Under the pieces are notes generated by a model. The model searched no databases and was not told the origin of the DNA. It saw only the letters and a list, made by a program, of their open reading frames with translations. Source: Haloarcula mannanilytica (lineage in GTDB: Archaea > Halobacteriota > Halobacteria > Halobacteriales > Haloarculaceae). From it: 64,000 nt of DNA. How positions within the stretch are numbered: position 1 is the stretch's first letter; every line of letters begins with the position of its first letter. Below are positions 17,204 to 44,903 of this stretch, piece after piece. The position numbers and the translations under genes are program-made. The stretch lies in contig NZ_BIXZ01000009.1 in the NCBI RefSeq assembly GCF_005406125.1, positions 1-64,000 on the forward strand, in the 5' to 3' direction.

Positions 17204-17216
17204 TTGGAATCCGAAA
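17204..17216. promoter_or_regulatory. copper-type dyad motif upstream of thioredoxin/halocyanin
   Basis: TTGGAATCCGAAA (minus strand TTTCGGATTCCAA), about 70 bases upstream of the thioredoxin start. Close to the TTTGGATTCCAAA dyad upstream of copA; see the finding on the shared motif. Confidence 0.45.
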
Positions 17217-17284
17217 TCTGTGACCCTCACAGCTTTCGGATGTGAATAGAAGTGTGCTAAAAGCATAAGACCATACTAGCTACT

Positions 17285-17593
17285 ATGACGGAAGTTATCC
17301 TGTTCACACAGGAGACTTGTGGAGCGTGCGCAACGCAGCGAGAGAAAAACGAGGGTATCGAAGATGCGTATCCGGATGTCGAGTTCCGGGAGGTCGACAT
17401 CCAGACCGATCTGGAGACGGCCGAGGAGTACGGTGTCCGAAAGACGCCAACGACGCTCGTGTATGCAAACGGGGAACAGACGGCCGAGTTCATCGGCATC
17501 GTCGACCGGGACGAATTGGAGGCTGCCATCGAGAGCGCCGGCCAGCAATCGCCCGGACTCACGAACCGGCTCGCCAGCATCATCCGTGGATAA
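17285..17593 (+). CDS. thioredoxin-like protein
   Basis: 102 residues with a thioredoxin fold. The active site is TCGAC (Cys16, Cys19) after a beta strand (EVILFTQETCGAC), and the cis-Pro segment is KTPTTLVY near residue 60. The CGAC active site differs from the standard CGPC. No signal peptide, so probably cytoplasmic. Followed after 19 bases by the halocyanin-SHOCT gene. Could reduce metal-bound or oxidised thiols; partner not known. Confidence 0.82.
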   Translation: MTEVILFTQETCGACATQREKNEGIEDAYPDVEFREVDIQTDLETAEEYGVRKTPTTLVYANGEQTAEFIGIVDRDELEAAIESAGQQSPGLTNRLASIIRG

Positions 17594-17612
17594 CAGAAGC
17601 CAACCAGCTACA

Positions 17613-18359
17613 ATGACAGACTACAGTAGACGCCAGTTCCTGGGAGCGCTCGGTGCTGGCACAGTCGCGAGTGCGGGATTCACCCAACCAGTCGCCGCAC
17701 AGGAGACGCCCGTCGTGAAGATGGGCAACAACTACTTCGACCCGATCGGGCTCCACGTCGAACCTGGCACGACCGTCCGCTTCGAGATAGCAGCCGGAGC
17801 TCACTCGGCGACGGCCTATCCGGACCGCGTTCCCGCCGACGCCACCGCCTTCGACAGCGGGACCATCTCGCAGGGGAGCTTCGAGCACACGTTCGAGGTG
17901 CCCGGAACGTACGACTACTACTGCATCCCTCACAAGACGGTCGGCATGGTCGGTCGCATCGTCGTTGGTAGCCCTGGCGGTCCAGCTGAAGACAGCCCGA
18001 TCCCGGACGGCGAGGTCCCAGACAGCGAAACGATCGTCCAGAACGGCGCCGTTGCCGTCGGCTCGGACGTCGACGGCAGTGGGAGTACCGATGGCGGAAT
18101 GATGGGTCCAGGGATGATGCACGGCCGGAACGGTGGATGGTTCGGTGGGCTGCCGTTCGTCGGCGGGGCACTCGGGATGCTGGGGCTGGTCGGCGGCTTC
18201 CTCTACTGGGCAATGGGTCGAGGCGATGCACCTCCAGAGAGTGACGATTCCGCTATGGAAACCCTCCAACGTCGTTACGCACGAGGCGAGATCGACGAAG
18301 AAGAGTTCCAGAAGCGTCGTGAACGGTTGGAGACTGGGAGTGAAGACCCATCTCGGTAA
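17613..18359 (+). CDS. Tat-exported halocyanin-like copper protein fused to SHOCT
   Basis: About 248 residues from the ATG at 17613 (the frame runs upstream through the thioredoxin gene but that part is out of context). Twin-arginine signal SRRQFLGALG; type 1 copper (plastocyanin-like) domain with ligands His in GAHSATAY, Cys and His in YYCIPHKTVGM, and the axial Met. Then a Met-rich linker (GGMMGPGMMHG), a membrane helix (about 180-200) and a SHOCT motif (RRYARGEIDEEEFQKRRE). The blue-copper domain faces outside and SHOCT inside. The fusion links electron transfer or copper binding outside to a protein-contact module inside. Confidence 0.82.
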   Translation: MTDYSRRQFLGALGAGTVASAGFTQPVAAQETPVVKMGNNYFDPIGLHVEPGTTVRFEIAAGAHSATAYPDRVPADATAFDSGTISQGSFEHTFEVPGTYDYYCIPHKTVGMVGRIVVGSPGGPAEDSPIPDGEVPDSETIVQNGAVAVGSDVDGSGSTDGGMMGPGMMHGRNGGWFGGLPFVGGALGMLGLVGGFLYWAMGRGDAPPESDDSAMETLQRRYARGEIDEEEFQKRRERLETGSEDPSR

Positions 18360-18643
18360 GGCGCGGTGTCGTCGCCATTTCTACACGCCTGAGGTCCCTC
18401 GCTCAGGAGTCCTTCGAAGACCTGTTCCTACGCCGCGGCACTTCTCCGCGGAACGTAAGCCGCACTCATCGGTGCCCAGAGAACGAGGGACACAGCAGCA
18501 ACCAGAGTCCACCGAACCGTTTGCCCGATCAGACGGTCGTAGTGAAATCCGAGTCAAACTATCCAATTGAGCGAAGCTGGATATAGTGCTGTTTGGGTCT
18601 TCTCCCCTACAGTTACCGGAGTAAGTAGTCTACTGGCCTGATC

Positions 18644-19405
18644 TTACTTCTCCTGTGTAATTCGGTAGTAGACGCCGATTGTGAGGACAGCTACGAGGAG
18701 GAGGTATCCAGTAGCCCACACCAATGAGAGAGTCGTATCTACGTCCGTTGTGAGTCCGGTATCGACCATCACACGGACGGGCCAATAGCCGGGGAGTAGT
18801 TTCATCCACCATTCGGGCTCGGACTGGATGAACAGCGGATCCTGGAAGAGTCCGATATCGAGCATCGGGAGAATCAGCATTAGCCACATCCCGGCTAGGC
18901 GGTCGAAGACGGCCCCGACGAGCATCCCGATGAGACCATACGTGACCGAGACGACGAGCATCGCTGCGACGAACCACCAGAGATGCTCAGGCTGGAAATC
19001 GACGAGCATCACGCCGACTGAGACGCCGGTGACGATGAGAGTGATTGCTGCGAGGACCCCAAACCGGGCAGTGATTACCTGTCGTGCACGATAGCCGGCG
19101 ACTGCCAGACGCCCATCCGTGTCTTTGGCTTCTCGCATCAGGAACAACCCAGCGAGTCCCGCGATGAGGGCGCTCGTAATCGGCGTCATAATCACGCCGT
19201 GGACCTCAGGCATCCCTCGCATGACCGTCACCGTCTCACCGTCGACGAGCGTCCGAACCGGCATCTCGACATCCTGGGTGACTGCGAACGCCAACGTGAT
19301 GAACGAGACCGGTAAGACGACCAGTAGAGCGACGAGGACGTAGTTTCGCGCCTGTTCTTTGATGCCGATTGTGAACGCCGTTGTCGTACGACTCATGCAG
19401 ACCAC
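18644..19405 (-). CDS. ABC transporter permease
   Basis: 253 residues with six predicted membrane helices, ABC-2 type. Starts within the upstream permease gene (13-base overlap, 19393-19405), so it is the third gene of an ATPase-permease-permease operon. A large outer loop around residues 40-75 (VEMPVRTLVDGETVTVMRG) precedes helix 2. Paired with 19393-20130. Resembles NosY or Cu-processing ABC-2 permeases only in general layout; substrate unknown. Confidence 0.78.
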   Translation of the reverse strand: MVCMSRTTTAFTIGIKEQARNYVLVALLVVLPVSFITLAFAVTQDVEMPVRTLVDGETVTVMRGMPEVHGVIMTPITSALIAGLAGLFLMREAKDTDGRLAVAGYRARQVITARFGVLAAITLIVTGVSVGVMLVDFQPEHLWWFVAAMLVVSVTYGLIGMLVGAVFDRLAGMWLMLILPMLDIGLFQDPLFIQSEPEWWMKLLPGYWPVRVMVDTGLTTDVDTTLSLVWATGYLLLVAVLTIGVYYRITQEK

Positions 19406-20130
19406 CCACCACTGGTGCGCATCGTCATTCCGAACACTGCGGTGACGAGTACGAGCAAGACTAGCAGGTATCCGGCAACGAAGCCGAGATCACCCGTCGT
19501 ATATGTACCTTGAAACATCGCCTCCTGAAGGAGTTCCTTCGGATGATAGAGCGGGAAGTACTCCACGAACTCGGGAACGTCGGCGGTCAGCGGGCTGTCG
19601 CCACTGAGGAACGCGTCCATCATCGCCAGGAACACCACGACGAGCGAGCCTTCGAACAGTCGCGGAAGGAGCGCCCCAACGAGTGCACCAAGAAACGCAT
19701 AGACGAGGCCGGCAAGTACGAGGAATCCGAACGTTAGAACAGGGGCTTCCGGTGAAATCGTCAGCCAGAGAACGCCGTAGTTTACGGCAGCCACGACGAC
19801 TGTGACACCCCCGAGCGTCGCTAATCGAGTCGCAAGCAGTGTTCGGGGTGGATAGCCTGTCTGAACGAGTCGTCGATCGGCTGCCCGCGCACTAATCATC
19901 TGTGCGAGTCCCATCAGACCGGCGATGATGGCGACCCCGAATATCGCTCCGAGGAGGCGACCCAGATCGATCGGAATCGCATCGACCGTCGGCATGGTCG
20001 GCAGTCCTGCCATCGCTTGTCCCCAGCCTTCGATAACGACAACCGGAAGGAGGAGTGCTAGGACAACATTCAGGGGAGTTCTGAGGAAGGTGGAGACGTT
20101 CGGCCGGATCCCCGTCCAAACCCTATTCAT
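19393..20130 (-). CDS. ABC transporter permease
   Basis: About 245 residues from the ATG at 20130, which overlaps the 3' end of the ATPase gene by 8 bases; an ATG at 20163 is possible but gives a longer overlap. Six hydrophobic segments, ABC-2 type. Same architecture as its neighbour, so the two probably form a heterodimeric channel. A DAFLSGDSPLTAD outer loop lies near residue 165. Substrate unknown. Confidence 0.78.
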   Translation of the reverse strand: MNRVWTGIRPNVSTFLRTPLNVVLALLLPVVVIEGWGQAMAGLPTMPTVDAIPIDLGRLLGAIFGVAIIAGLMGLAQMISARAADRRLVQTGYPPRTLLATRLATLGGVTVVVAAVNYGVLWLTISPEAPVLTFGFLVLAGLVYAFLGALVGALLPRLFEGSLVVVFLAMMDAFLSGDSPLTADVPEFVEYFPLYHPKELLQEAMFQGTYTTGDLGFVAGYLLVLLVLVTAVFGMTMRTSGGWSA

Positions 20131-20866
20131 CGGTCTCTTCCCCCCGTTCACTGGCCGTTGCATCAGTCTCGCCTTCCTGGTCAGTCACGTCGTAGACCTG
20201 TCCATCACGTACCTCGTAGATGCGGTCGAGACGACTTTGCTCTTCGATCAGGTGTGAAATCATCGTGACAGCTGTTCCGTCGGCAGCGAGTTCCTCAGCG
20301 AGATCCCAGAACGTTAGATACGTTTCCCAGTCAAATCCGGTGTAAGGCTCGTCCAGCATGAGGACGTCGGGGTCGTGCATCAGGGCGATACTGAGATTGA
20401 TTTTCTGCCGGTTTCCACCGCTGAGTTGGTCGATTCGGTAGTCAAGGTACTGCTCGAAATCGAGTTTCGACGCCAAGTGGTGTTTGGCCTCGTCGATTTC
20501 TTCGGCGGTCATTCCGTATCCGGAACCGAACAATCGGAACGTCTCTCCGACCGTCAAGCGGTCGTAAAGCAGTGGTTCCTGTGGACACCAGCCAACGGTT
20601 CCCGTCCGTTCGACTGTTCCGGAATCCTGTTCGAGGACACCGACGAGGATGTTCATGAGCGTGGATTTGCCCGACCCGTTCGCGCCGACGATTCCGACGA
20701 TTTCCCCCCTCCGAATTTCGAGATCGGCATCGGTGAGGACGGTCACTGACCGCGTAAATGGAAAACTCGATCCGTACGTTTTTTCAATCTCATTAGCACG
20801 GACGAGTACCTTGTTGCTTGTAGCTTCTCCTGTGGTGGTTGTGGACGCTTCCATAGGTGTATACAC
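20123..20866 (-). CDS. ABC transporter ATP-binding protein
   Basis: 247 residues. Walker A GANGSGKST near residue 60, Q-loop CPQEPLLYD near 95, signature LSGGNRQK near 150, Walker B VLMLDEPYTG near 169, and the switch His in MISHLIEE. CcmA/NosF-like exporter ATPase of an ABC-2 system. First gene of the operon with two permeases. An alternative start lies 12 bases downstream (20854). A TTTCAAATCCAAA dyad lies 27 bases upstream, suggesting metal control. Confidence 0.88.
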   Translation of the reverse strand: MYTPMEASTTTTGEATSNKVLVRANEIEKTYGSSFPFTRSVTVLTDADLEIRRGEIVGIVGANGSGKSTLMNILVGVLEQDSGTVERTGTVGWCPQEPLLYDRLTVGETFRLFGSGYGMTAEEIDEAKHHLASKLDFEQYLDYRIDQLSGGNRQKINLSIALMHDPDVLMLDEPYTGFDWETYLTFWDLAEELAADGTAVTMISHLIEEQSRLDRIYEVRDGQVYDVTDQEGETDATASERGEETDE

Positions 20867-20892
20867 ACGCTCCTAATTCACTGCGATTACTG

Positions 20893-20905
20893 TTTCAAAT
20901 CCAAA
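20893..20905. promoter_or_regulatory. copper-type dyad motif upstream of the ABC operon
   Basis: TTTCAAATCCAAA on the plus strand (TTTGGATTTGAAA toward the ABC genes). Only one or two bases differ from the perfect dyad near copA. Lies between the ABC operon and the TRASH-Lrp gene at 20963. Confidence 0.45.
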
Positions 20906-20962
20906 CTATTAGCAGCAAACTCGTGAGCAATCAGGGATTGAGTATACAGCTAATGCTAGACT

Positions 20963-21565
20963 CTAAGCATCAGATTTCTCTTGACTTTCTGTATACTGTT
21001 CCCTATACGTTGTTTCACAGTTCTCACTGCAAAACTGCTGGAGTGAACCACCGACACGGGTGGCTAGTCCGTCTTCACCGACAGTGGTTCCGCAATTTGC
21101 ACATTTGAGTGCGGATTCAGTCCCCTCGGCATACGTTGAGTGAGCAGCGCTCGACAGCAGTTGGACGTCGTATCGCCGCACGTCAGTCAGTGGTAGATAT
21201 TGCTGCGCCCAGTTTCCGACTATAGTCCGCGGCGGCGTCGCAACAGCCACGATTTCGCCCTCCACAGTTGTGAATACGTGTTCTACGGATGGGCTCTCGA
21301 GGATCGATTCTCGAAGAGAATCCGTCTTTCCGAGCTCAGGCTGGAGGCGTACCATGACGTGTACCCGGTTTTCGTACTGTGTGAGGTCGAGATCAACGGT
21401 GAATCGACGAATGACATCTTCTTGCTCCAGCTGACGGACGCGTGCTGAAACGGACGGGGCTGAAAGATTTACTGCCTCAGCAATAGTGCTGTATGGTCGT
21501 CTCGCGTTCTCCGCTAAAAGACGGAGGATTTCGCGATCCGTGTCGTCAAGTTCTGGTTGGGTCAT
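20963..21565 (-). CDS. Lrp/AsnC-family regulator with C-terminal TRASH domain
   Basis: 200 residues. N-terminal winged helix (about 5-55; DREILRLLAENARRPYSTIA, PSVSARVRQLEQEDVI), a RAM-like alpha/beta domain (60-145), and a C-terminal TRASH zinc-finger-like domain (CANCG near 156, FCSENC near 179). TRASH-Lrp proteins are known haloarchaeal copper regulators: metal binding to TRASH changes DNA binding. Divergence from no neighbour is seen; the ABC operon follows on the same strand. Paralogous to the regulator at 31963. Confidence 0.85.
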   Translation of the reverse strand: MTQPELDDTDREILRLLAENARRPYSTIAEAVNLSAPSVSARVRQLEQEDVIRRFTVDLDLTQYENRVHVMVRLQPELGKTDSLRESILESPSVEHVFTTVEGEIVAVATPPRTIVGNWAQQYLPLTDVRRYDVQLLSSAAHSTYAEGTESALKCANCGTTVGEDGLATRVGGSLQQFCSENCETTYREQYTESQEKSDA

Positions 21566-21648
21566 CGAAAGGCGGAATGGGGGTGAGGGGATCGGGTGAA
21601 TGGGGGGGGGTGTGGGGGGAGCTACGACGCAGGTGAGGGGTGTGACGG

Positions 21649-21789
21649 TTAGACGTAATTCTCCGGTGTCGAGGTGAATGTCTCCTTGCAGCCCTCGGCA
21701 CAGAAGTAGTACGTCTGACCGTCGTACTCAGCTGTGGCCGCCGGATCACTTTCATCGACGTCCATTCCACAGACTGGATCAGTTGCCAT
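21649..21789 (-). CDS. 46-residue stand-alone YHS domain protein
   Basis: A complete small gene: ATG at 21787-21789, stop at 21649-21651. It encodes MATDPVCGMDVDES, then YDGQTYYFCAEGCKETF and a short tail, a single YHS/TRASH domain with Cys7, Cys30 and Cys34. A good Shine-Dalgarno-like GGGTGAAA precedes the start by a few bases. Probably a cytoplasmic metal carrier or partner of the YHS permease and TRASH regulators. Overlapping longer frames have no protein-like sequence. Confidence 0.85.
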   Translation of the reverse strand: MATDPVCGMDVDESDPAATAEYDGQTYYFCAEGCKETFTSTPENYV

Positions 21790-21840
21790 TCGGTTTCACC
21801 CCACATCAATGGTACGAGGGCCTGAATCAAGCAATTTGTT

Positions 21841-21855
21841 CTTAGCAATCCAAAG
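21841..21855. promoter_or_regulatory. copper-type dyad motif upstream of the YHS gene
   Basis: CTTAGCAATCCAAAG (minus strand CTTTGGATTGCTAAG), imperfect inverted repeat (5 of 7 pairs), 51 bases upstream of the YHS start codon. Same core as the motif near copA. Confidence 0.45.
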
Positions 21856-21981
21856 TCGGGATACATAGCGATTTGCGCCGTGCTGCACGGTTTGGCTTTT
21901 CTGACTCCACAATCAACGGTTAGTACCTCACAATCCCGAACTATCGTTCGAGTATACCAACGGATTCCTATCTGTGTCCTA

Positions 21982-23020: not shown

Positions 23021-23027
23021 CGGCCAC

Positions 23028-23451: not shown

Positions 23452-23946
23452 TCAGATCTCGGTGTACACGTCACCTGTCTTTCCGCCGCCGAGTTTGTAG
23501 ACGGTGAATGTGTCGGACTTCGTCCCGCCCATCCCCGGCGATCCAGCCGGCATCCCGGGCAACGCGATGCCGTCAATCGCCGGCTCTTCCTCGAGCATCG
23601 TCGCGATAACCTCGGCAGGAACATGTCCTTCGACGACGTACTCGTCGAGGACGAGTGTGTGACAGCTCTGTAGATCCGATGGAATACCGTGTTGGCGCTT
23701 GAGATCCGTCACGTCCTCGGTTTCGGTTTCCCCGAGCGTCGTGTCGAGCTGTTCCCGCAGGTACGACGCATATTTTCCACAACAGCTACAGCCTGGTGAA
23801 CTGTATTGTTGGGCGTTCGTCACCGCTAGCGTTCCCTCGATATCCCACTCATCCCCACTCGATGACCCCAAACAACCGGCGGTTCCGAGTGCGACTGTCG
23901 TCGCACCGACCCGTAGTAGTTCGCGACGAGTTACGGCCCGTTCCAT
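23452..23946 (-). CDS. DUF411 metal-binding lipoprotein
   Basis: About 164 residues from the ATG at 23946. Twin-arginine-type signal (TRRELLRVGATT) with a lipobox-like GTAGC near residue 24. The DUF411 domain follows: SPGCSCCGKYASYLRE with three Cys near 52-56, and SCHTLVLDEYVVEGHVPAEVI near 95. DUF411 proteins are associated with copper and other heavy-metal resistance in bacteria. Export and lipid anchoring place it on the outer face. First gene of the cluster with the Cys protein and methyltransferase. Confidence 0.85.
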   Translation of the reverse strand: MERAVTRRELLRVGATTVALGTAGCLGSSSGDEWDIEGTLAVTNAQQYSSPGCSCCGKYASYLREQLDTTLGETETEDVTDLKRQHGIPSDLQSCHTLVLDEYVVEGHVPAEVIATMLEEEPAIDGIALPGMPAGSPGMGGTKSDTFTVYKLGGGKTGDVYTEI

Positions 23947-24402
23947 ATGCTCGTCACTTGGCTCGGAAGTATTCAATTGTACGTCGACCTTTCCTGTGTA
24001 TTGAGAACGGATTCAAGCACGACGGGGAAGGTGACTTTCAGTTCTGAGGAGGAAACCCCAAAGGTCAGAGTCCCGTATTCGTCTCTATGTGGCGACCCTC
24101 ATCGGTCGAGGGTGCTGCCGTGACGGTTTTCCGTCAACGAGCATATCGGCCTTAAATTGCGCCCAACATGACCCAGAGCATGACTCGTCGCACCGACTCC
24201 GACACTTCACTCCTCGAAACTGTGGGAAATACGCTCTCGTCGAACTGATGCGACTCCAAACGACGTCTCCACTCTTTTCGAAATAGACGTGCTATAGCGA
24301 GTTACTTGCGATAAAAGCCTCAAGTCACCACCCCAGAGACTGTTCTCCCGGTTTCGATTCTTAACAGAAAGCACGGTAAATCGTCGTTACGTATAGATAT
24401 GT
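23947..24402. other. intergenic region, no gene supported
   Basis: About 455 bases between divergent genes. Short frames exist, including a 26-codon one near 24168 (MTQSMTRRTDSD), but none has a recognisable domain. The last 40 bases before the UspA gene are AT-rich and could hold its promoter. Confidence 0.4.
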
Positions 24403-25401
24403 ATGAACTCCCCCAGCCATCTAGAAGTTCGAGAAGGTGCGGACATCAACCTGTACAACCAGATCCTCATTCCACTCTACGGAGCTGATATAAGGGACTC
24501 AGTGGTCCAATATGGTCTATCACTTGCAGAAACGTATGATGCGGCTCTCCACGTGTTATATATTCAAGATGAGGAACGCACGGAGGTGGAATCCGATCAA
24601 GTCACTAAACAAGAGGAATGGGACGCAGCAGCGGTAATTGAACCCGTGGTGGATCAGGCCCACTCGCTCGGACTCAATGTGATACCAGCAGTGGATAGTG
24701 GGCACTCTCCAGGTGTTATTCGGGAATACGCTGAGGAGAATGATATCGATTTGCTTGTCCACCAGAAACCTACACAGACTAGATTAGCACGAATTCTCCG
24801 GAGAGACGTCTCCAGCCACATCATTCAAAATATCTCTCTTCCTGTCTTGACGATACCTGATATGGATCCCTCTGATCCGGTAGGAGAGTTATCTACTAGT
24901 CAGTTCACAGATATTCTCGTGCCTACGGATGGATACGACGAGGCATCTGTGGCCTTCAAACATGGGCTACAAATTGCTAAACGGTATGATGCAACCCTAC
25001 ATGGACTTTTTATCATTTCCGAACAGTCCTATTCGAGTCGGCCTGGATTCACGTGGGAAGAGGTCACTGACTCTTGGGAACAGCGGGGAACTCGGCTCTT
25101 GGAGGACATTACGGAGAAGGCAGCGACCTTGGACGTTCCTGTCCGAACTACGTTGAGCTTTGGTCAACCTCAGCAGGAGATTCTCAAATACACTGAGGTG
25201 ACTGACATCGACCTTGTTACAATGGGGACACGAGGATTGACTGGCATTCGTCGGCTATTACAGGGAAGCGTCGCAGCTCAAGTGATCGAGGAAGCAGATT
25301 ACCCCGTTCTAACGATTAACCGAAGGACAGCTGAATTGAAAAAACACCCGTACACCTTTCTTCGAAAGACAAACCAGAATCGGAAGTCAAGGCTATATTG
25401 A
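24403..25401 (+). CDS. tandem universal stress protein
   Basis: 332 residues with two UspA domains. Domain 1 (about 19-150) begins YNQILIPLYGA and lacks a clear ATP-binding Gly motif. Domain 2 (about 165-310) begins TDILVPTDGYDEA and carries the GTRGLTGIRRLLQGSVAAQV segment, the G-x-x-G-x-(9)-G-S ATP-binding motif. The C-terminal 20 residues are basic. Cytoplasmic stress-response role by family. Codon and base use look more AT-rich than neighbours, suggesting separate origin. Confidence 0.85.
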   Translation: MNSPSHLEVREGADINLYNQILIPLYGADIRDSVVQYGLSLAETYDAALHVLYIQDEERTEVESDQVTKQEEWDAAAVIEPVVDQAHSLGLNVIPAVDSGHSPGVIREYAEENDIDLLVHQKPTQTRLARILRRDVSSHIIQNISLPVLTIPDMDPSDPVGELSTSQFTDILVPTDGYDEASVAFKHGLQIAKRYDATLHGLFIISEQSYSSRPGFTWEEVTDSWEQRGTRLLEDITEKAATLDVPVRTTLSFGQPQQEILKYTEVTDIDLVTMGTRGLTGIRRLLQGSVAAQVIEEADYPVLTINRRTAELKKHPYTFLRKTNQNRKSRLY

Positions 25402-31868: not shown

Positions 31869-31942
31869 GCTTGTTCTACTATACGGGGTCTAGGTTTAGG
31901 CGATTTACTGCTTCGAGAGGCGGGGTTTCGACTGCAGGAAAA

Positions 31943-31955
31943 TTTGGATTCCAAA
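31943..31955. promoter_or_regulatory. perfect copper-type dyad upstream of copA
   Basis: TTTGGATTCCAAA: TTTGGA and TCCAAA form a perfect 6-bp inverted repeat around a single T, 75 bases upstream of the copA start and just after the TRASH-Lrp gene. The clearest member of the shared motif set and a candidate operator. Confidence 0.5.
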
Positions 31956-31962
31956 GACAGCG

Positions 31963-32553
31963 TTACGCTCCCTCTTCGAGTCGCTGATACCGATCGTCGA
32001 ACCGTGTGAGACAGGACGGACAACAGAAGTGATAGATCTCTCCGTCGATTCTCGTCGTTTCACCTTGATTATCAACGGTATTGTTACATTCAGCACAGGT
32101 GAGTGCAAATTCGACGCCATCAACGGACGGCGTCCATTCAAGCTCGTCAATTAGCGTGACGGTGTAATCTGCTACATCGATCTCGTTAAAGAGTCCATCT
32201 ACCCACTGACGTACGTTCTGGGCTTCAACACGGGCATAGAACCAAAGATCTCCTTCGGAGGTCGTGAAGACGTGTTCAACGCCATCTGACTCTCGAGCCC
32301 GCTCGCGGGCGGCCTCCAACGACGCTGAGCCGATTTCGGCCTGAATAAATACCGGTACACCAGCTCGGAGATGAGCCCGGTTGACGTCAATCGTGAAGTT
32401 GTTAATGATGCCAGCTTCCTGTAATCGCTTTACCCGGTCAGACACGGCTGGCCCCGACAAGTCGACCTCCTCGCCAATATCGCTGAACGGGCGGCGGGCG
32501 TCATCAGCGAGTAACGAGAGGATTTCTAAGTCGGTTTCATCCAAATTGCGCAT
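31963..32553 (-). CDS. Lrp/AsnC-family regulator with TRASH domain, copper-regulator candidate
   Basis: About 196 residues from MRNLDETD at 32553. Winged helix (about 5-50; EILSLLADDARRPFSDIGEE, PAVSDRVKRLQEAGII), RAM-like alpha/beta domain (60-140), and TRASH domain with CAECN near 152 and FCCPSC near 175. Archetype of haloarchaeal copper-responsive Lrp proteins. Directly upstream of copA on the same strand and divergent from a copper chaperone, with motif sites on both sides. Likely controls both. Confidence 0.87.
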   Translation of the reverse strand: MRNLDETDLEILSLLADDARRPFSDIGEEVDLSGPAVSDRVKRLQEAGIINNFTIDVNRAHLRAGVPVFIQAEIGSASLEAARERARESDGVEHVFTTSEGDLWFYARVEAQNVRQWVDGLFNEIDVADYTVTLIDELEWTPSVDGVEFALTCAECNNTVDNQGETTRIDGEIYHFCCPSCLTRFDDRYQRLEEGA

Positions 32554-32633
32554 ACGACCGCTTCGTCTCGCAGGATACATTATTGTTGCCCACAACACAC
32601 CTTCGAAATCGGTGATCCAGGGCTGCGACAACA

Positions 32634-32644
32634 TTGGATTCTAA
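32634..32644. promoter_or_regulatory. copper-type motif between regulator and chaperone
   Basis: TTGGATTCTAA, 4 of 5 pairs symmetrical, in the divergent region between the TRASH-Lrp gene and the copper chaperone, 43 bases upstream of the chaperone start. Confidence 0.45.
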
Positions 32645-32687
32645 GCAGAAAACCACATAGAATACTCGCCCCTATCTACGAATGGAT

Positions 32688-32885
32688 ATGACTCAGACAA
32701 TCACCGTCGAAGGAATGACCTGTGAACATTGCGAGCAGACCGTCGAAGAGGCACTCGAAGAAGTTGAGGGGGTTACGTCTGCTACTGCGGATCGTGACTC
32801 AGAATCCGCGACGGTCGAGGGGTCCGCTGAACGGGATGAGCTTGTGACTGTGGTCGAAGACGCTGGATACGATGCCTCTGCGTAA
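32688..32885 (+). CDS. copZ: copper chaperone, HMA domain (CopZ-like)
   Basis: About 65 residues (an earlier ATG at 32682 adds two). Single HMA domain with GMTCEHCEQT (Cys13/Cys16 counting from 32688); the EHCEQ after the first Cys and the GMTC entry are typical of Cu(I) chaperones. Short acidic C-terminal part. Divergent from TRASH-Lrp/copA and followed by aconitase. Closely related to the chaperone at 39368. Delivers Cu(I) to CopA by family function. Confidence 0.87.
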   Translation: MTQTITVEGMTCEHCEQTVEEALEEVEGVTSATADRDSESATVEGSAERDELVTVVEDAGYDASA

Positions 32886-32956
32886 CAAATCCCGATTCTC
32901 GTCGAATCGGATTCGGAGAGGGATTGATACGACTGCCAATCCCAGGTGTAGATACT

Positions 32957-38409: not shown

Positions 38410-38412
38410 ATC

Positions 38413-38825: not shown

Positions 38826-39221
38826 ATGATTCGAACACTCGTCGGTGTCCTCGGCGCTATCTCAGCGCTGTTCCCGGACGAAATCGTCGAGCTCTTCGAG
38901 AAACTCGCCATTTCGAATCCAGACGAGGGAACAGTGAGAGGGTGGATACGTCCAGCAGTCCGGTCGGAGGGTGTTCTGATAGCTGCGCTTTCACTCTTTA
39001 ACGGGCGAGCATACGCATTGCTGATGAATCTTACCGGCGTGTTCGGTGCGATAGTCCTCTTATTTCCCGACCTGTATCAGAGATTTGCCACCGCGTTCCT
39101 GTACGAGCGTCCAGAGTCGATAGAATGGAACGAGCGATTCCGCTTGGGCATTCGGGCTATCGGCGCACTCTATGTCTTTTTAGCGGCGAAGACGTACAGA
39201 GAGCGTCACAACGATACTTGA
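38826..39221 (+). CDS. hypothetical membrane protein
   Basis: About 131 residues from MIRTLVGV at 38826. Three or four membrane helices (about 4-20, 45-62, 68-86, 105-122), basic ends. No family recognised. Followed by a copper chaperone but with 146 bases between; no clear link. Confidence 0.6.
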   Translation: MIRTLVGVLGAISALFPDEIVELFEKLAISNPDEGTVRGWIRPAVRSEGVLIAALSLFNGRAYALLMNLTGVFGAIVLLFPDLYQRFATAFLYERPESIEWNERFRLGIRAIGALYVFLAAKTYRERHNDT

Positions 39222-39281: not shown

Positions 39282-39297
39282 ACTTTGAATCTAAAGT
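39282..39297. promoter_or_regulatory. copper-type dyad upstream of chaperone/CopB operon
   Basis: ACTTTGAATCTAAAGT: ACTTT and AAAGT repeat arms with a GAATCT centre, about 70 bases upstream of the second copper chaperone. Extends the shared motif. Confidence 0.45.
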
Positions 39298-39367
39298 TTG
39301 AGCCCCACGATATCAGTATGATCGAAGGGGAAATCCGCTAAAGAGAGGAGGCCGTGTGTATCCCTGT

Positions 39368-39565
39368 ATGACGACGACGATCATCGTGGAAGGCATGACG
39401 TGCGGTCACTGTGAGCAGACGGTCGAAGAGGCCCTCGAAGAGGTATCCGGCGTGACTGACGTGACCGTCGACAGGGAGAGCGAACAGGCGAGCGTCGATG
39501 GTGAGGCAAATGTCACAGCTCTCGTGGAGGCCGTCGAAGACGCCGGGTACACCGCTTACGCCTGA
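39368..39565 (+). CDS. copZ: second copper chaperone, HMA domain
   Basis: About 65 residues from the ATG at 39368. Binding motif GMTCGHCEQT; the rest (VEEALEEVSGV, DVTVDRES) closely matches the chaperone at 32688. Upstream of and probably cotranscribed with the CopB-type ATPase. Two near-copies in one window imply duplication or separate partners. Confidence 0.85.
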   Translation: MTTTIIVEGMTCGHCEQTVEEALEEVSGVTDVTVDRESEQASVDGEANVTALVEAVEDAGYTAYA

Positions 39566-39697
39566 GAATCGCGCGGACCACTCCGAGACAACGGCCAACC
39601 GTTGTCTTTGAAGCTTCGCTACGCTGGTCCTGCTGTACAGTTTCAGTGGGGAAGATTCAGGGGGCCAGCGGATCCACCTCTACAGAGAATATGGGCT

Positions 39698-41980
39698 ATG
39701 GACGACCACAAAGATACAAATGAGAATCCCCCTGGAGGGGAACACCAGCAGGACGACAGCAGTCACCAGCACGAACACGGCGAGCAGGATGAATCGGACG
39801 CCGAGTCGGACGAGCAGCGGGTAGAACAGGAGCTACTGGAAGAAGAGGCACACCCTGCTGCGGAGAGTGAGACGGTGCTCGACGAGCAGCACGAGCACGC
39901 TGGACACGAGGGCGACGGGCACGGCCACGGTTCCCATGAGGGCCACGGTGAGGGGCATGGCGGGATGCACGAGGGCCACGAGCAGATGTTCCGCCGGCGC
40001 TTCTTCGTCTCGACGCTCCTGTCGATCCCAGTCCTGCTATACAGCGAAATGCTGCAGGAGTGGCTCGGGTTCTCCGTCCCCGCGTTCCCGGGCAGCGAGT
40101 GGATCAACCCCGTCTTCGCGGTCATCGTCTTCGCGTACGGTGGGATGCCGTTCCTCCAGATGGCGGTGCCGGAGCTGAAAGACCGGTCGCCGGGGATGAT
40201 GACGTTGATCTCGATGGCGATCACCGTCGCGTTCGTCTACAGTCTCGCGAGCGTGGTCTTCCCGACGCAGTCTGCGTTTTTCTGGGAACTCGTCACGCTG
40301 ATCGACATCATGCTGCTGGGCCACTGGATCGAGATGCGGTCGGTCCGGCGGGCCTCCAGCGCGGTCGACGAACTGGCGAAACTGATGCCAGACACCGCCG
40401 AGCGTATTACCGACGACGGAGAAACCGAGGAGGTTCCCGTCAGGGAGCTCTCGGAAGGCGATCTCGTGCTCGTCCGGCCGGGCGCAAGTGTCCCTGCTGA
40501 CGGCACCGTCGAGGAAGGTGATTCGGACGTCAACGAGTCGATGATCACTGGCGAGTCCAAGCCCGTCTCGAAGGAGCCTGGCGACGAGGTCATCGGCGGC
40601 ACCATCAACGGCGATGGTAGTCTCCGCGTCCGTGTTGGCGCGACGGGCGAGGAGACGACGCTGGCGGGCATCATGCGTCTCGTCGAGGAAGCCCAGCAGA
40701 GCAAGTCCAAGACGCAGGTACTGGCCGACCGGGCGGCAGGCTGGCTGTTCTACGTCGCGCTCGGGGCGGCAGTCGTGACGGCGATTGCGTGGACCGTCGC
40801 GGTCTCGTTCGACGCGACCGTCATCGAGCGAGTCGTGACGGTGCTCGTCATCGCCTGCCCGCACGCCCTCGGGCTCGCCATTCCGCTGGTCGTCGCGATC
40901 AACACGTCGCTCGCCGCTCGCAACGGGATGCTCGTTCGCGACCGCATCGCGATGGAAGACGCACGGAATCTGGACGCGATCATCTTCGACAAGACAGGGA
41001 CGCTTACCGAGGGCGAACACGGCGTCGTGGATATGGCGACCGTCAACGGCGTCGACGAGGACGACGCGCTCGGGCTGGCGGCAGCCGTCGAGAGCGACTC
41101 CGAGCACATGATCGCGCGAGCGATTCGCGAGGCCGCCGACGAGCGAGACCTAACTACTCCCGACGCGACCGCCTTCGAGGCGATCAAAGGCCGAGGGGTT
41201 CGCGCAAACGTCGACGGAAACGAGGTGTACGTCGGTGGGCCGAACCTGTTGACCCAACTCGATAGCGAGATCCCCGACCATCTCCAGCGCTTCGCTGACG
41301 AGGCCGGCCAGAACGCCCAGACAGTGGTGTATCTCGTTCGTGACGGAGAGTTGATCGCCGCGGTTGCGATGGCCGACGTGATCCGTGAGGAGAGTTTCCG
41401 CGTCGTTGACGCCCTCCACGATCTGGGCATCGAGGTTGCGATGCTAACTGGCGATTCCCAGGACGTCGCCAACGCTGTCGCCGACGAACTAGGCATCGAC
41501 ACGGTGTTCGCGGAGGTACTCCCCGAAGACAAGGACAAGAAAGTCCAGGAACTCCAGGACCAGGGGAAGCTCGTGGGGATGGTCGGCGACGGTGTGAACG
41601 ACGCGCCGGCGCTGACACGGGCCGACGTCGGCATCGCCATCGGGAGTGGCACCGACGTTGCGGTCCAGTCGGCGGACGTCATCCTCGTCCAGAACAACCC
41701 GATGGACGTCGTTCGGCTCGTGAAACTCAGTAAGGCGAGCTACCGGAAGATGCAAGAGAACATCGTCTGGGCGGCGGGGTACAACGTGTTCGCGATTCCG
41801 CTTGCAGCAGGCGTGTTGGCACCGATCGGGATTCTGTTGTCTCCCGCTGTCGGTGCGCTTCTGATGTCGCTGAGTACGGTGATCGTCGCGATTAATGCGC
41901 AGTTGCTCCGGCGCGTCGACCTATCCCTCCCCGAGCTCCCAAGTGCGACTCCACCTACTGACGCTCAATCTGCTGACTGA
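39698..41980 (+). CDS. copB: CopB-type P1B-3 ATPase, CPH motif
   Basis: About 760 residues from the ATG at 39698. The N-terminal 100 residues have no HMA domain but are very rich in His, Asp and Glu ([29 protein letters not shown]). Eight membrane helices, TGES at 284-287, CPH at 387-389 in ACPHALG, phosphorylation Asp431 in [16 protein letters not shown] in place of SEHPLA, and GDGVNDAP near 640. CPH and a His-rich N-terminus define P1B-3 Cu(II)/Cu(I) exporters. Probably cotranscribed with the chaperone upstream. Confidence 0.92.
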
Positions 41981-42062
41981 GAAGTGCTTTCTCGTCATTC
42001 ACGTAAGGCTAAATCTTTCGGATAGATAATTATTTCTGGCACTAGGAGGCCGTTTTTACGAC

Positions 42063-42854
42063 TTAGAAGATACCCAAAATGAATCCCGTACCCATCACGA
42101 TGAGGATCGTCGCCGTGAATGCTGGCAGGTACTCGGCGTAGTCTTCAAGCCGATCCTCGTAACGCTGGTAGCCAGCCACGAGTACCAGCGTCACACCGAC
42201 GAGTGACGTAATGACGGCCAGCGAGTAGATGAGCATCAGTTCGAGGCAATAGGTCGAGCCGGTGCAGATCGCAATAATATCGAACTCCTCGTTGTGGGTG
42301 AATCCGAGGGCGAACGCGAGGGCTGCCATGCCGTAGAGCCCGCGATCTGGCGTCTCGTCGAGGTGATCGTGAGAGTGTGAATGGTCGGACTGGCCGGCAA
42401 ACGGGACGGCCCGCCGAACTCGAGCGATCCACCCCTGATTATCGTCGGTGCTGTGGGAATGATCGTGACTGTGGTGGGCGTGATCTTGATCGTGGCCGTC
42501 GTGCTCGTGATGGTCACCGTGGTCGTCATCGTCATCCGGCGCGGTGTGATCATGTCCATTGAAGTATTGCCAGATCCCGAGGGCAATGAGTAACGCTCCA
42601 GCGACGTAGTTCATCCAGCTGATCTGGGTGAGGTCGAAGTACGAGAGCGCCCAGAAGTACACGACTACCATCGCGATACTACTGATGAGATGTCCGATCC
42701 CGAGAATGAGGCTCGATGCGGCGCCGTAGAACCATTTGTTCTGTTTGTCGAGCGCGTAACTCGCTGCAATCGCCCATCCGTGGCCCGGGGCGAGCCCGTG
42801 AGTGAGACCGAGAGCACTTGCCCCGAGTGCGAGTCCGAGAATTCCGTTTGCCAT
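42063..42854 (-). CDS. NicO/RcnA-type nickel-cobalt exporter
   Basis: 263 residues. About six membrane helices with a long cytoplasmic loop at about 100-165 very rich in His and Asp (HDHTAPDDDDDHGDHHEHDGH, HAHHSHDHSHS). Motifs LTHGLAPGHGW near residue 18 and ALGFTHNEEFDIIAICTG near 180. The HxxxxHG-type pattern and His loop match the NicO family. Divergent from a NikR regulator, consistent with Ni/Co efflux under nickel control. Confidence 0.88.
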   Translation of the reverse strand: MANGILGLALGASALGLTHGLAPGHGWAIAASYALDKQNKWFYGAASSLILGIGHLISSIAMVVVYFWALSYFDLTQISWMNYVAGALLIALGIWQYFNGHDHTAPDDDDDHGDHHEHDGHDQDHAHHSHDHSHSTDDNQGWIARVRRAVPFAGQSDHSHSHDHLDETPDRGLYGMAALAFALGFTHNEEFDIIAICTGSTYCLELMLIYSLAVITSLVGVTLVLVAGYQRYEDRLEDYAEYLPAFTATILIVMGTGFILGIF

Positions 42855-42891
42855 CTACTCGATAGCAGAATGAGATCGCTTATACCGGTTG

Positions 42892-42920
42892 TTATGACCC
42901 GATTCGGGAGTTCGTAATAA
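42892..42920. promoter_or_regulatory. dyad in the NikR/NicO divergent promoter
   Basis: TTATGAC (42892-42898) and GTAATAA (42914-42920) form an imperfect inverted repeat (6 of 7) with 15 bases between. An inner CCCGATTCGGG (42898-42908) is a separate perfect 5-bp repeat. Long spaced dyads of this kind fit tetrameric NikR operators; it lies between the divergent genes. Confidence 0.5.
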
Positions 42921-42955
42921 TGACACTCTTGAGGAGCGCCGTCTATGGCTTAGAT

Positions 42956-43357
42956 ATGAGAACGAGTTTGAACATTCCGCAAGAGGTTCTCGAATCGTTC
43001 GATACGACGTGGCAAGACGAAGGATTGGAATCACGCTCCCGTGCCGTCCGCGAGGCGATTCACGAATACATCGAGCGCCACACAGAGCTCGAAGGGTTAG
43101 AAGGTCCTGCCGTCGCGGCGCTGGCGTTCGATTATGAGCACACACTCGTCATCGGCGAACTCCATACCGTCCAGCACGAATTCGAGGATGTCATCGGCAC
43201 CACACAACACATGCACCACGGGGAGTGGTGTCTCGAGACGGTTTTCTGTCAGGGATCCGCAGCTCGAATCCGGGAGTTGGTGTACCGACTCCGTGATTTC
43301 GATGCCGTCGGCCGCGTGAACGTCATGTTCCTCCAACCGGAACTCTCCACGGAATAG
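42956..43357 (+). CDS. nikR: NikR-type nickel-responsive regulator
   Basis: 133 residues from MRTSLNIP at 42956. N-terminal ribbon-helix-helix (residues 1-45; TSLNIPQEVLESFD, SRSRAVREAIHEYI) and a C-terminal ACT-like metal domain. His74 (VQHEFED), His85 and His87/His88 (TQHMHHGEW) and Cys92 (WCLE) resemble the NikR high-affinity nickel site. Divergent from the NicO exporter. Likely represses or activates it in response to Ni. Start chosen at the RHH, not the earlier ATG at 42920. Confidence 0.87.
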   Translation: MRTSLNIPQEVLESFDTTWQDEGLESRSRAVREAIHEYIERHTELEGLEGPAVAALAFDYEHTLVIGELHTVQHEFEDVIGTTQHMHHGEWCLETVFCQGSAARIRELVYRLRDFDAVGRVNVMFLQPELSTE

Positions 43358-43669
43358 AGCGACTGAGTCGTCTGCTCCAATCAGCACTCCTATCGATACG
43401 TGTCTCTCATATGCGCACGTTGCGATGGACTGTCTCCGACGACCGCGTAAGGTGGAGACAATGTTGTCTTCTGCTGTATGGGATATCGGGATGTCTATCT
43501 CGTCCTTGGTGATGAGGAGACGGAGAGTCAATAGATGCGTATGACACACGAGGCGATGCATCACCGGCGCTACAGAGATTCGGCGCGATGGAGACTCTAC
43601 TGGATCGGGGACCGGGTTATGTGTTTTAGTTCAGGGAGAGAGCCTGCAGTTTGCCGTATCGAGGGTTGT
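43358..43669. other. intergenic region between nikR and the CDF gene
   Basis: 312 bases between convergent genes. No repeat, RNA or gene recognised. A 'GTCTCTC...' region and short open frames are not protein-like. Presumably holds the transcription ends of both genes. Confidence 0.4.
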
Positions 43670-44578
43670 TCATGCGGGAGAGGTGGTTGATTCATCAGCG
43701 TCTTTCCACTCTCCGAGCCCTGCCGGATCCAGGTGGACGTGGACATCAGCGACTGGCTCGATTTCACGGACGCGCCGGCGGAGTTCTGATTCAACGTCAT
43801 GTGCTTCGACCACCGATAGTTCTTGATCGACTTCGGCGTGAAACTCGACTTCGATCATGTGCCCAGAGTAGTACGCGACAAAATCGTGAATACCATGAAC
43901 AGCAGAGTGTTCCCGGATGCGCTCCTTGATCTCTTCCTGTTCTGATTCCGGAGGAGCGCTATCGGCGAGATACTGAATATTCTCTCGCGAGATATCTACG
44001 CCTTGGTGGATAACGAGTAGACTCACGATGCCGCCTGCAATCGGGTCAAAAACTGGGTAACCAACTGCCATACCGAGGACACCCACCAGAGCCGCACCAG
44101 TCGTATAGAGATCGTTAAGACTGTCCGCAGCAAGCGCGCGGAGGCTCGGGAGCTGGAGTTCCTGATTCTTGTATTGGGTATACCAGTAACAGACGTACAT
44201 ATCACCGAGTGCAAACAGGAGCCCGATAATAAGCCAAATACTGTACTCAGCGGTCACTCCAGTTAGAATTGAGTGACCCGCATCGTACAGCAGTTTGAGT
44301 CCGAGGAGAACGAGCATGCCACCGACGAAGAGCGCGGAGAGGGGTTCGAATCGGTTGTGTCCGTGGGGGTGTGACTGGTCTGCATCCTCATAGACGGACT
44401 GGCCCCAGATCAAGACGACACCGCTTGCAAGGAGGTCTGCAACGGAGTGCGCTGCGTCGGCAGTAAGGGCGAGACTTCCTGTGAGGATCCCGAGTGCCCC
44501 CTCGACACCAATTTTGAGAGCATTTAACAGAACATTTGCCCAAGAGACTTTGAGAAAGGCTACACGTGAATCCGCCAT
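43670..44578 (-). CDS. cation diffusion facilitator (CDF) metal exporter
   Basis: 302 residues. Six membrane helices in the first 200 residues. Metal sites in TADAAHSVADLLAS (helix 2, His47/Asp51 area) and LAADSLNDLYTT (helix 5). The SHPHGHNRFEPL loop follows helix 2. The cytoplasmic C-terminal domain (about 205-295) ends with VHVHLDPAGLGEW. Exports divalent cations (Zn, Co, Ni or Fe) by proton exchange; specificity unknown. Divergent from the CPW ATPase. Confidence 0.9.
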   Translation of the reverse strand: MADSRVAFLKVSWANVLLNALKIGVEGALGILTGSLALTADAAHSVADLLASGVVLIWGQSVYEDADQSHPHGHNRFEPLSALFVGGMLVLLGLKLLYDAGHSILTGVTAEYSIWLIIGLLFALGDMYVCYWYTQYKNQELQLPSLRALAADSLNDLYTTGAALVGVLGMAVGYPVFDPIAGGIVSLLVIHQGVDISRENIQYLADSAPPESEQEEIKERIREHSAVHGIHDFVAYYSGHMIEVEFHAEVDQELSVVEAHDVESELRRRVREIEPVADVHVHLDPAGLGEWKDADESTTSPA

Positions 44579-44903
44579 AATATAGCGATACTGCTACATC
44601 CACATAAGAGGCCTCATTAGGCGCGTATAATCGAGTTTTTGATTCAATCTAAACTTTTCACGGTGCGTTGAGAGTCAACGGGTAACCAAGAGGCTCTTTA
44701 TATAACTGTACCTACCTATGCAATAGATAGTTGACCCAACGTATCCTAACCCGAGCCCACTAGGACCTCGAGCGACTGCACCGCTCTCTCCGAACAGCAT
44801 TAATATCGATGCATCTGTACCCCCAGTAATGGCCGTTCGACTGAGGTCGGTATCCACGTTCCGCGGTCGAGGCTGTACCTCTTCTCACCGGTGGTGATCA
44901 GCT
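44579..44903. other. divergent promoter region with motif and in-frame leader ORF
   Basis: 325 bases. Contains TTTGATTCAATCTAAA (44638-44653), a weak member of the shared dyad set, 60 bases upstream of the CDF start. A TATA-like TTAATAT at 44800-44806 would give a leaderless transcript beginning near ATG 44829; that frame (MAVRLRSVSTFRG, about 22 codons) ends in TGA at 44895-44897 in the same frame as the ATPase start at 44904. Leader peptide or just a start-site ambiguity. Confidence 0.4.

Follow-up and report, generated by a model that had tools for sequence, protein, structure and literature searches.

A near-palindromic dyad (consensus from sequence, CTTTSGAWTCSAAAG) recurs upstream of copper genes in the 64,000-nucleotide stretch of Haloarcula mannanilytica DNA analysed here (the window), and it very probably represents the operator of the TRASH-Lrp copper regulators (CopR/HVO_1752 type). 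An earlier note on this DNA had described such a dyad upstream of many metal genes, linked it to two TRASH-Lrp regulators in the window and proposed a copper regulon. Because the motif of that note was judged by eye, we replaced it with a matrix learned from other genera only and made symmetric.

Derivation and enrichment of the dyad

From 30 regulator loci we removed 9 at 80–100% identity (the window copy and its near copies) together with the near-duplicates L044, L047, L053 and L054. De novo discovery in the non-coding DNA beside the 17 other-genus orthologues of the window TRASH-Lrp regulator, with the window sequence excluded, returned CTTTGGAATCGAAAG, which is in effect the dyad seen by eye; its log-likelihood of 269.6 compares with 45.8–53.9 in five shuffled sets, the form of control that the note had proposed. 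A run on untrimmed flanks had yielded only the conserved coding signature of the chaperone and CopA, and the flanks were then trimmed to non-coding DNA. A second set of 19 TRASH-Lrp loci from other families, 41–48% identical to the second window regulator (Reg2), gave TTTGGGTTCGAAAGT (142.1 compared with 51.2–61.9 in four shuffled sets); these flanks were left untrimmed, and the downstream side alone yielded a coding-like word.

The dyad is strongly enriched in the window. The 13-base pattern TTTGGATTCCAAA, to whose matches the site starts given in the earlier note lie within one base, occurs 25 times with up to three mismatches on both strands, near-palindromes being counted on each, compared with 7.6 ± 3.3 in 100 dinucleotide shuffles, none of which gave 25. 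Scored with the matrix, the window holds 13 sites of at least 12 bits, compared with 2.3 per composition-matched shuffle (30 shuffles). A 400-kb stretch sampled from this genome (GC 0.63; window GC 0.50–0.67 in 2-kb steps) contains 9 such sites, or 1.44 per 64 kb. The motif is thus far commoner here than chance would give. Between 13 and 45 kb, 10 sites of at least 13 bits were observed where the 400-kb genome sample predicts 0.32, bearing out the claim of a shared dyad; 2 of the 10, at 38910 and 33262, lie inside open reading frames and were set aside as probable chance matches. Sites at 52068, 57968 and 49563 fall outside the 13–45-kb region. Five of the 13 window sites are thus probably not operators, and since about one site of 13–14 bits is expected per shuffled window, each single site of that strength leans on conservation and position. 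Among random 160-bp segments of the same genome, 0.2% contain a site of at least 12 bits.

In pNG600, the homologous plasmid of Haloarcula marismortui annotated in RefSeq, 8 of 9 sites of at least 11 bits in the 40.6 kb searched are intergenic, compared with an intergenic share of 18.4% for this stretch (binomial P about 1e-5), position being judged by the gene calls of others and the sites not being independent of the window set. Across the 4.2-Mb genome, the sole other perfect copy of the dyad, on contig C7, precedes an orphan copper-chaperone gene with no adjoining regulator, a prediction come true elsewhere in the genome that supports the putative copper link; a third near-perfect site (C4:84961) has no copper gene adjoining. 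The relaxed pattern (three mismatches) proved too loose for genome-wide use, with 161 matches compared with 91 in a reversed control: of 15 such loci inspected, 13 are beyond the window and 10 of these fall inside predicted frames, and the C7 chaperone site is the only clear new target.

Regulators and candidate target genes

Seven of the eight sites listed in the earlier note score 13.6–20.2 bits (31942, 20892, 21841, 13103, 17202, 32632 and 39282), and the eighth, 44638, scores 2.8 bits and was rejected; the CDF/CPW region is therefore not a member by the dyad motif. The best dyad of the window, 31942–31956 (minus strand; 20.2 bits), is the one that had been called perfect; it reads CTTTGGAATCCAAAT toward copA and lies between the Reg1 stop codon and copA, whose ATG follows 73 bp further on, an offset shared by 8 of 8 related islands (15.8–20.2 bits). 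The copA gene (29262–31868, minus strand) encodes a P1B-type ATPase with two HMA stretches by Pfam. Reg1 (31963–32553, minus strand) is a TRASH-Lrp regulator of the CopR/HVO_1752 type. We take its longer open reading frame, to 32634, to start too early: the 196-aa length matches the annotated pNG600 copy, and several relatives carry an in-frame stop somewhere in the longer frame. A further dyad (32632–32646, 13.8 bits) occupies the divergent region between Reg1 and chap1 (32682–32885, plus strand; start 32682 or 32688), an HMA copper chaperone by Pfam PF00403 whose pNG600 counterpart starts 41 bp downstream of the dyad; in one related island (G056) the chap1 site is down to 4.7 bits. Directly after chap1 and co-directional with it lies the aconitase gene acnA (32924–35740, plus strand), identified from layout and pNG600 annotation. 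Because no dyad stands before acnA itself (its upstream DNA scores 3.2 bits at best), the gene is probably read from the chap1 promoter and probably belongs to the set through a chap1 operon. copA and chap1 flank Reg1 in an order identical in pNG600, the linkage expected of archaeal CopR/CopT regulators.

Reg2 (20963–21565, minus strand) is 40% identical to Reg1. Both carry an Lrp/AsnC-type helix-turn-helix (PF13404; 54.4 bits in Reg1, 59.9 bits in Reg2) and a C-terminal TRASH domain (PF24273; 88.2 and 47.2 bits, respectively). PF08394 (Arc_trans_TRASH) matches only a paralogue on contig C21; for these proteins PF24273 serves better as a TRASH model. The TRASH cysteines CxxC and CCxxC are invariant in 17 aligned relatives; Reg2 has CSENC instead of CCxxC. 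A search for the Lrp ligand-binding (RAM) domain with PF01037 found nothing up to E 0.001, but LrpA chain 1i1g_A aligns to regulator residues 4–125. Between Reg2 and an ABC operon (18644–20866, minus strand) lies a dyad at 20892–20906 (minus strand; 15.2 bits), 37 bp before the likely ABC ATG (20854). The operon comprises an ATPase (20123–20866) and permeases at 19393–20163 and 18644–19405, assigned by Pfam for the ATPase and one ABC-2 permease and by pNG600 annotation for the other. Its dyad is present in 4 of 4 non-redundant copies at 72% identity or more (window included) and in 1 of 19 remote ABC homologues. On the other side of Reg2, a dyad at 21841–21855 (minus strand; 14.6 bits) lies 51 bp upstream of the YHS–Reg2 genes and recurs at the same offset in G009 (12.7 bits). 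The YHS gene proposed earlier keeps this site with an amended frame: the open reading frame 21546–21866 is the wrong frame, and frame analysis places a 46-aa gene with a GTG start at 21649–21789 (minus strand), as annotated in pNG600. Of 7 distinct sites at Reg2 operons, gathered by hand, 1 has an intact GAWTC core, compared with 41 of the 70 distinct sites that flank regulators (Fisher P 0.04, post hoc), weak support for a putative separate Reg2 operator.

A dyad at 17202–17216 (plus strand; 13.9 bits), with a weaker second copy of 6.6 bits 31 bp downstream, lies 68 bp upstream of a thioredoxin-family gene (17285–17593) followed by a plastocyanin/halocyanin-like gene (pair 17285–18359, plus strand; Pfam and pNG600 annotation); of 13 non-redundant orthologues, the window type among them, 9 carry this dyad, and of 8 remote thioredoxins none does. 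Since remote ABC homologues and remote thioredoxins mostly lack the site, membership tracks copper-island clades rather than protein families at large. The dyad at 39282–39296 (plus strand; 13.6 bits in the window, 16.6 bits in G103) lies 71 bp before the likely ATG (39368) of chap2, an HMA chaperone gene (39356–39565) followed by a CopB-type ATPase gene (39602–41980; pair 39356–41980, plus strand; Pfam). Overlooked earlier, a dyad at 24351–24365 (plus strand; 13.5 bits) stands 37 bp upstream of a gene for a universal stress protein with two Usp stretches by Pfam (24403–25401, plus strand); AGAAAG follows directly 3′, as at chap1, and the dyad is absent from the only diverged Usp homologues met (G009, 37%; G034 and G110, 29–30%). 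The weakest assignment is the dyad at 13103–13117 (14.3 bits), between a divergent gene (11478–12944, minus strand) and a gene for an ArsP_1-type permease with a YHS domain by Pfam (13273–14667, plus strand). A site of at least 12 bits occurs in 6 of 12 non-redundant homologues of the permease, counting the window type; in 4 of these 6 it lies at −84 or −83, and the window permease scores only 8.2 bits at −84. The copper gene set first proposed thus gains support from the other-genus footprints and the C7 chaperone, loses CDF/CPW and acquires Usp.

Conservation, promoter layout and alternative explanations

The dyad accompanies TRASH-Lrp regulators across genera. An upstream dyad of at least 12 bits is present at 47 of 52 non-redundant regulator loci, and a dyad precedes copA at 30 of the 33 with a recognised copA; when only the 44 clusters dissimilar to the training loci are considered, the corresponding counts are 39 of 44 and 23 of 25. 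Loci without a recognised copA have a downstream site in only 5 of 19 cases. A more distant TRASH-Lrp set has a flanking dyad at 9 of 19 loci, and plain Lrp genes without TRASH have one in 0 of 20, upholding the proposed link to TRASH-Lrp regulators.

A dyad accompanied by spaced weaker copies is a common form for Lrp-type operators. In many promoters here a weaker second copy lies about 31 bp away (three helical turns); among 26 divergent regions with a second site, 19 show a spacing of 30 or 31. In Trx promoters (n = 11) the +31 copy averages 4.6 bits (0 of 300 shuffles), and in copA promoters (n = 32) it averages −2.0, but there too with 0 of 300 shuffles; the window copA promoter has no clear +31 copy, its best second copy being at +17 (4.0 bits). 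Distances from dyad to start codon fall into two classes, 35–41 and 68–73 bp, and an AGWAA stretch and a TATA-like box adjoin the proximal dyads.

Might the dyads instead be operators of another DNA-binding protein, such as a plain Lrp or an unlinked metal repressor, that merely travel with copper genes? Operator binding is itself a prediction, no regulator adjoins the chaperone gene next to the C7 dyad, and 6 of 10 control TRASH-Lrp genes lack a flanking dyad, including the C21 paralogue (55% identical); two of the four that have one are Reg1 and Reg2 themselves. We nevertheless consider this explanation unlikely, given the association with TRASH-Lrp loci set against none in 20 for plain Lrp, and given that a dyad with spaced weaker copies is one usual Lrp-type form in the available text of PMC7830388.

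Smaller still is the probability that core promoter sequence (BRE/TATA context), conserved along with the genes, accounts for part of the signal. The box and AGWAA stretch abutting the proximal dyads would fit, as would the long near-identical DNA common to related islands; yet the same near-palindromic word stands at two start-codon distances, its two sides change together between Trx promoters (CCTTGGAATCCGAAA, CTTTCGAATCGAAGG), and only 0.5% of random 215-bp segments of the genome contain the dyad. Chance occurrence of an AT-rich palindrome in AT-richer intergenic plasmid DNA could draw on the 5 of 13 window matches that are intragenic or outside the island and on the relaxed genome pattern with its 161 matches compared with 91 in the reversed control, and as an account of the whole set it is refuted by composition-matched shuffles, the real-genome background, the annotated plasmid and the other-genus footprints, leaving it a negligible probability. 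The earlier caution that sites could be partly chance therefore falls for the set and stands as a possibility for 13103, 24351 and the intragenic matches.

Comparison with known systems and a candidate copper regulon

An operator of TRASH-Lrp regulators fits what is described for haloarchaeal relatives. In Halobacterium salinarum, deletion of VNG1179C (CopR) abolishes copper induction of yvgX, and yvgX and two chaperones are its reported targets (available portions of PMC3551603 and PMC1779511); counting against this reading, CopR is also described as a repressor and heat-shock regulator (in part of PMC5605881). The likeness covers an Lrp protein with a TRASH domain targeting a P1B copper ATPase and HMA chaperones (PMC3551603, PMC1779511 and PMC5605881, as available), whereas the mobile island here carries a pair of paralogous regulators and a broader set of genes. 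The available text of the literature searched gave no operator word for haloarchaeal CopR; for VNG1179C a ChIP-chip motif is published in a figure of PMC4236453 and a refined matrix in supplementary figures of PMC4177876. As the available text of PMC7830388 describes it, Pyrococcus furiosus CopR is an octameric TRASH-Lrp regulator beside copA that stimulates copA from a semi-palindrome just upstream of the BRE and a C-enriched TATA box, with a footprint extended in steps of about one turn. The Haloarcula system resembles it in regulator, copA linkage and predicted promoter layout, but the haloarchaeal operator is a different word: the P. furiosus motif TTNNCAWWWTGNNAA has one one-mismatch match in the 64 kb compared with 0.8 expected, which is not above chance. 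Reg1 and Reg2 share the TRASH subfamily PF24273 with Haloferax HVO_1752, whose deletion strain grew like wild type under many conditions (available text of PMC8223754), a further point against the proposed role. In Hfx. alexandrinus, copA, lrp, copZ and petE (the plastocyanin gene) are induced by silver (part of PMC10694973); the accessible parts of PMC10694973 and PMC8223754 describe no operator for HVO_1752 or the copA–lrp–copZ cluster. By description, the Sulfolobus/Saccharolobus cop cluster (CopT/CopR) likewise groups a TRASH regulator, a copper-binding protein and copA (portions of PMC3600143 and PMC10694973).

We envisage a dimer of Reg1 and/or Reg2 on each dyad, with adjacent dimers joining on one helix face as in other Lrp octamers. 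Copper, possibly delivered by the chaperones, would reach the TRASH cysteines and alter the complex, which would then aid the basal machinery at a weak TATA-like box immediately downstream; we favour activation over repression with reasonable confidence. Joint induction of chap1 and acnA would supply a spare Fe–S aconitase during copper stress. Only tentatively do we extend this to a mobile haloarchaeal copper island in which two paralogous TRASH-Lrp sensors would read a single operator word at two registers (roughly 36 and roughly 70 bp ahead of the start codon), three-turn phasing would place neighbouring dimers in a copper-gated Lrp wrap, Reg2 would be splitting off its own sub-regulon (YHS–Reg2 and ABC) with a half-degenerate operator, and the regulon would include the spare aconitase.

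The regulator class is not new, since H. salinarum CopR was already known; the gain here is a putative operator, its phasing and a wider predicted gene set. The data suggest that a copper regulator present in almost identical form in several genera moves together with its operators. They provide a concrete, testable candidate operator for the haloarchaeal CopR/HVO_1752 class, previously known from knockouts, and predict thioredoxin/halocyanin, the ABC transporter, the YHS protein, Usp and aconitase as new regulon members. They also suggest a function for HVO_1752, whose deletion is reported to have no phenotype, and offer a promoter grammar with which to study archaeal Lrp action at a weak TATA promoter.

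A shared dyad before the metal genes

An earlier note on this DNA had proposed that near-copies of TTTGGATTCCAAA lie at eight places before metal genes and that these genes, with two TRASH-Lrp regulators, form a copper regulon. Scored with a matrix built from loci of other genera, seven of the eight claimed sites reach 13.6–20.2 bits, and the word is commoner than chance (25 matches with at most 3 mismatches versus 7.6 in shuffles). The site at 44638 scores 2.8 bits and was rejected as a dyad. De novo motif discovery with a shuffled control recovered the dyad without any window sequence. Using expectation-maximisation seeded with random words of the set, we analysed trimmed non-coding DNA from both flanks of the TRASH-Lrp regulator gene in 17 loci of other genera in the same family (62–73% protein identity), with the window omitted to avoid circularity. 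The resulting word, CTTTGGAATCGAAAG, has a log-likelihood of 269.6 versus 45.8–53.9 in five shuffled sets that were given fewer starts each (30 versus 80 for the real set), and is returned by the upstream flank alone and by the downstream flank alone.

Matrix scans covered the window, the fetched loci and 445 kb of genome, and genome-wide searches used patterns. The window holds 13 sites of at least 12 bits versus 2.3 per shuffle, and the top-scoring site, at 20.2 bits, precedes the P1B-type ATPase gene copA. Between 13 and 45 kb, a stretch picked to contain the span of the earlier claim, we observed 10 sites of at least 13 bits, two of them inside open reading frames (ORFs), against 0.32 expected from a 400-kb sample of this genome. 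Most of the window is poorer in GC than that sample, so the comparison with shuffles is the more cautious measure. Three further window sites of at least 12 bits fall outside the stretch, and 0.2% of random 160-bp pieces of the genome attain 12 bits. Two gene models were corrected: the start of regulator Reg1 (31963–32553) is taken as 32553 rather than 32634, making the site at 32632 intergenic, and the YHS gene is a 46-amino-acid frame at 21649–21789.

In the 4.2-Mb genome, whose contig C9 begins with the window, the only other perfect dyad lies at C7:23463, 58 or 70 bp (depending on the start codon chosen) before a further HMA copper-chaperone gene; none of the neighbouring frames seen encodes a pump. 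A third site, C4:84961, is one mismatch from the consensus (19.2 bits) and has no copper gene adjacent, so the genome-wide record is imperfect. This site overlies a doubtful ORF; a 413-amino-acid ORF without evident copper link starts about 170 bp further on.

Association with TRASH-Lrp regulator genes

Both window regulators share one layout of site, regulator gene(s), site and target: 32632 site, Reg1, 31942 site and copA; and 21841 site, YHS, Reg2 (20963–21565), 20892 site and the ABC operon. Among 52 non-redundant loci, from an alignment of the best 80 of 217 relatives found, all at named loci, 47 carry a dyad of at least 12 bits within 170 bp upstream of the regulator. In 33 loci pattern matching located the start of copA, and 30 of these have a dyad before it; of the other 19, in some of which the pattern missed copA, 5 have a downstream dyad. 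When only the 44 clusters that differ from the training loci are counted, the upstream dyad is present in 39 and the pre-copA dyad in 23 of 25. A second de novo set, of 19 TRASH-Lrp loci from other families just 41–48% identical to Reg2, again returned the word, as TTTGGGTTCGAAAGT (142.1 versus 51.2–61.9 in four shuffles), with 9 of the 19 reaching at least 12 bits on some side.

As a control we fetched 30 loci from 78 Lrp-type matches in this genome and six relatives. Flanking sites occur at 4/10 TRASH-Lrp genes, two of them Reg1 and Reg2, and at 0/20 Lrp genes without the TRASH domain; dyads thus accompany TRASH-Lrp genes, though some TRASH-Lrp genes lack them. No flanking dyad was found at a third TRASH-Lrp gene of this genome (C21:6834–7415, 55% identical to Reg1), which is also its sole match to PF08394. 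A chromosomal TRASH-Lrp gene (C1:555768–556373) has a 13.9-bit dyad (C1:556451) about 77 bp past its matched end.

Site position, spacing and a proposed mode of control

Plasmid pNG600 of Haloarcula marismortui (NC_006394.1) provides external annotation for a homologous island. Across 40.6 kb, 8 of 9 sites of at least 11 bits are intergenic, versus 18.4% of bases, although this stretch, being homologous to the window, does not supply an independent set of sites. Distances to annotated starts are 73 bp (copA), 71 bp (the HMA chaperone gene chap2), 68 bp (Trx, the thioredoxin gene paired with halocyanin), 51 bp (YHS), 41 bp (the HMA chaperone gene chap1), 37 bp (the universal stress protein gene Usp), and 155 and 158 bp (a permease/amidohydrolase pair); the ABC site lies 145 bp from the annotated start, and its window copy 37 bp from the likely ATG. 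The dyad occupies two positions relative to the start: proximal (chap1, ABC and Usp; 35–41 bp), directly abutting AGWAA, and distal (copA, chap2 and Trx; 68–73 bp). The YHS dyad resembles the proximal class at 51 bp, without AGWAA.

Many promoters show a weaker second copy about 31 bp from the first. The best mean second score falls at +31 in copA promoters (n = 32) and in the 11 of 13 Trx promoters whose main site scores at least 10 bits, a result reached by 0/300 shuffles. In 26 of 52 divergent chaperone–regulator regions there is a second site of at least 5 bits, and 30 or 31 bp separate the two highest-scoring sites in 19 of these 26. In the window, Trx has a +31 copy (6.6 bits), chap2 a weak copy at +32 (2.2 bits) and copA no clear +31 copy. 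A spacing of 31 bp is three turns and would fit dimers of an Lrp octamer sharing one helix face; Pyrococcus furiosus CopR is described as an octamer of this kind, with footprints at steps of about one turn (PMC7830388).

Many copA promoters have a TATA-like stretch containing C or G, and a copper-loaded regulator might rescue such a weak promoter. Published work points both ways: yvgX is described as not copper-induced in a Halobacterium salinarum VNG1179C deletion, which speaks for activation (PMC3551603, PMC1779511), whereas CopR is elsewhere presented as a repressor of copper ATPases (PMC5605881) and Thermococcus onnurineus CopR as a repressor (PMC7830388), which speaks against it. For P. 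furiosus CopR, the same source places a semi-palindrome just before the BRE, with a C-enriched TATA box (PMC7830388). That operator word differs from the haloarchaeal dyad and does not exceed chance in the 64-kb window.

Predicted targets and the copper island

The Trx/halocyanin pair is the best new predicted target. Sites of at least 12 bits occur 80–84 bp before the aligned start in 9 of 13 non-redundant orthologues (at least 70% identity, the window type among them) and vary in both halves at once (CCTTGGAATCCGAAA, CTTTCGAATCGAAGG); remote thioredoxins have a site in 0/8 cases. The ABC site is present in 4/4 non-redundant close copies and 1/19 remote homologues, and permease homologues have a site in 6/12, mostly closer to the gene than in the window. 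An island in another haloarchaeal genome (G009), with proteins 67–88% identical to those of the window (chap1 63%), retains dyads in front of Trx, ABC, YHS, copA and Reg1/chap1, with their offsets unchanged; its permease site lies at −84, not −170, and its Usp homologue (37%) has none. A different palindrome, approximately GAATATTCGGTAWATGCCGAATATA, recurs upstream of remote ABC homologues, at the start of many operons that share about 60% identity with the ABC operon of the window, and is probably the operator of another regulator.

Within the window, the copper dyad is absent from the divergent NicO-type nickel transporter and NikR regulator pair (42063–43357). No strong dyad of their own was found for the DUF302 and DUF411 genes (16388–16804, 23452–23976; best 2.0 and 7.2 bits), whose proteins are candidates for copper handling. 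Directly behind chap1 on the same strand, inside the copper island, lies acnA (32924–35740), named aconitase in the pNG600 record, for which no own dyad was found. Copper damages Fe–S dehydratases, and the island aconitase is possibly a spare Fe–S enzyme for copper stress. The island has probably moved recently, as judged from sequence identity: the Reg1 protein is 99–100% identical on plasmids in nine records (hosts Haloarcula, Halorubrum, Halobaculum, Natrinema, Natronomonas, Halobacterium hubeiense, Salarchaeum and Halobellus), and large island parts are near-identical in several genomes of other genera.

In archaea, this class of regulator, its role with copper and the copA–regulator–chaperone cluster are already known. 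We found no operator sequence printed in the available text on VNG1179C, the H. salinarum CopR; a ChIP-chip motif in a figure (PMC4236453) and a refined matrix in supplementary figures (PMC4177876) exist, and priority for the operator word is therefore not claimed. The gain over what was known is a defined predicted operator and a larger gene set.
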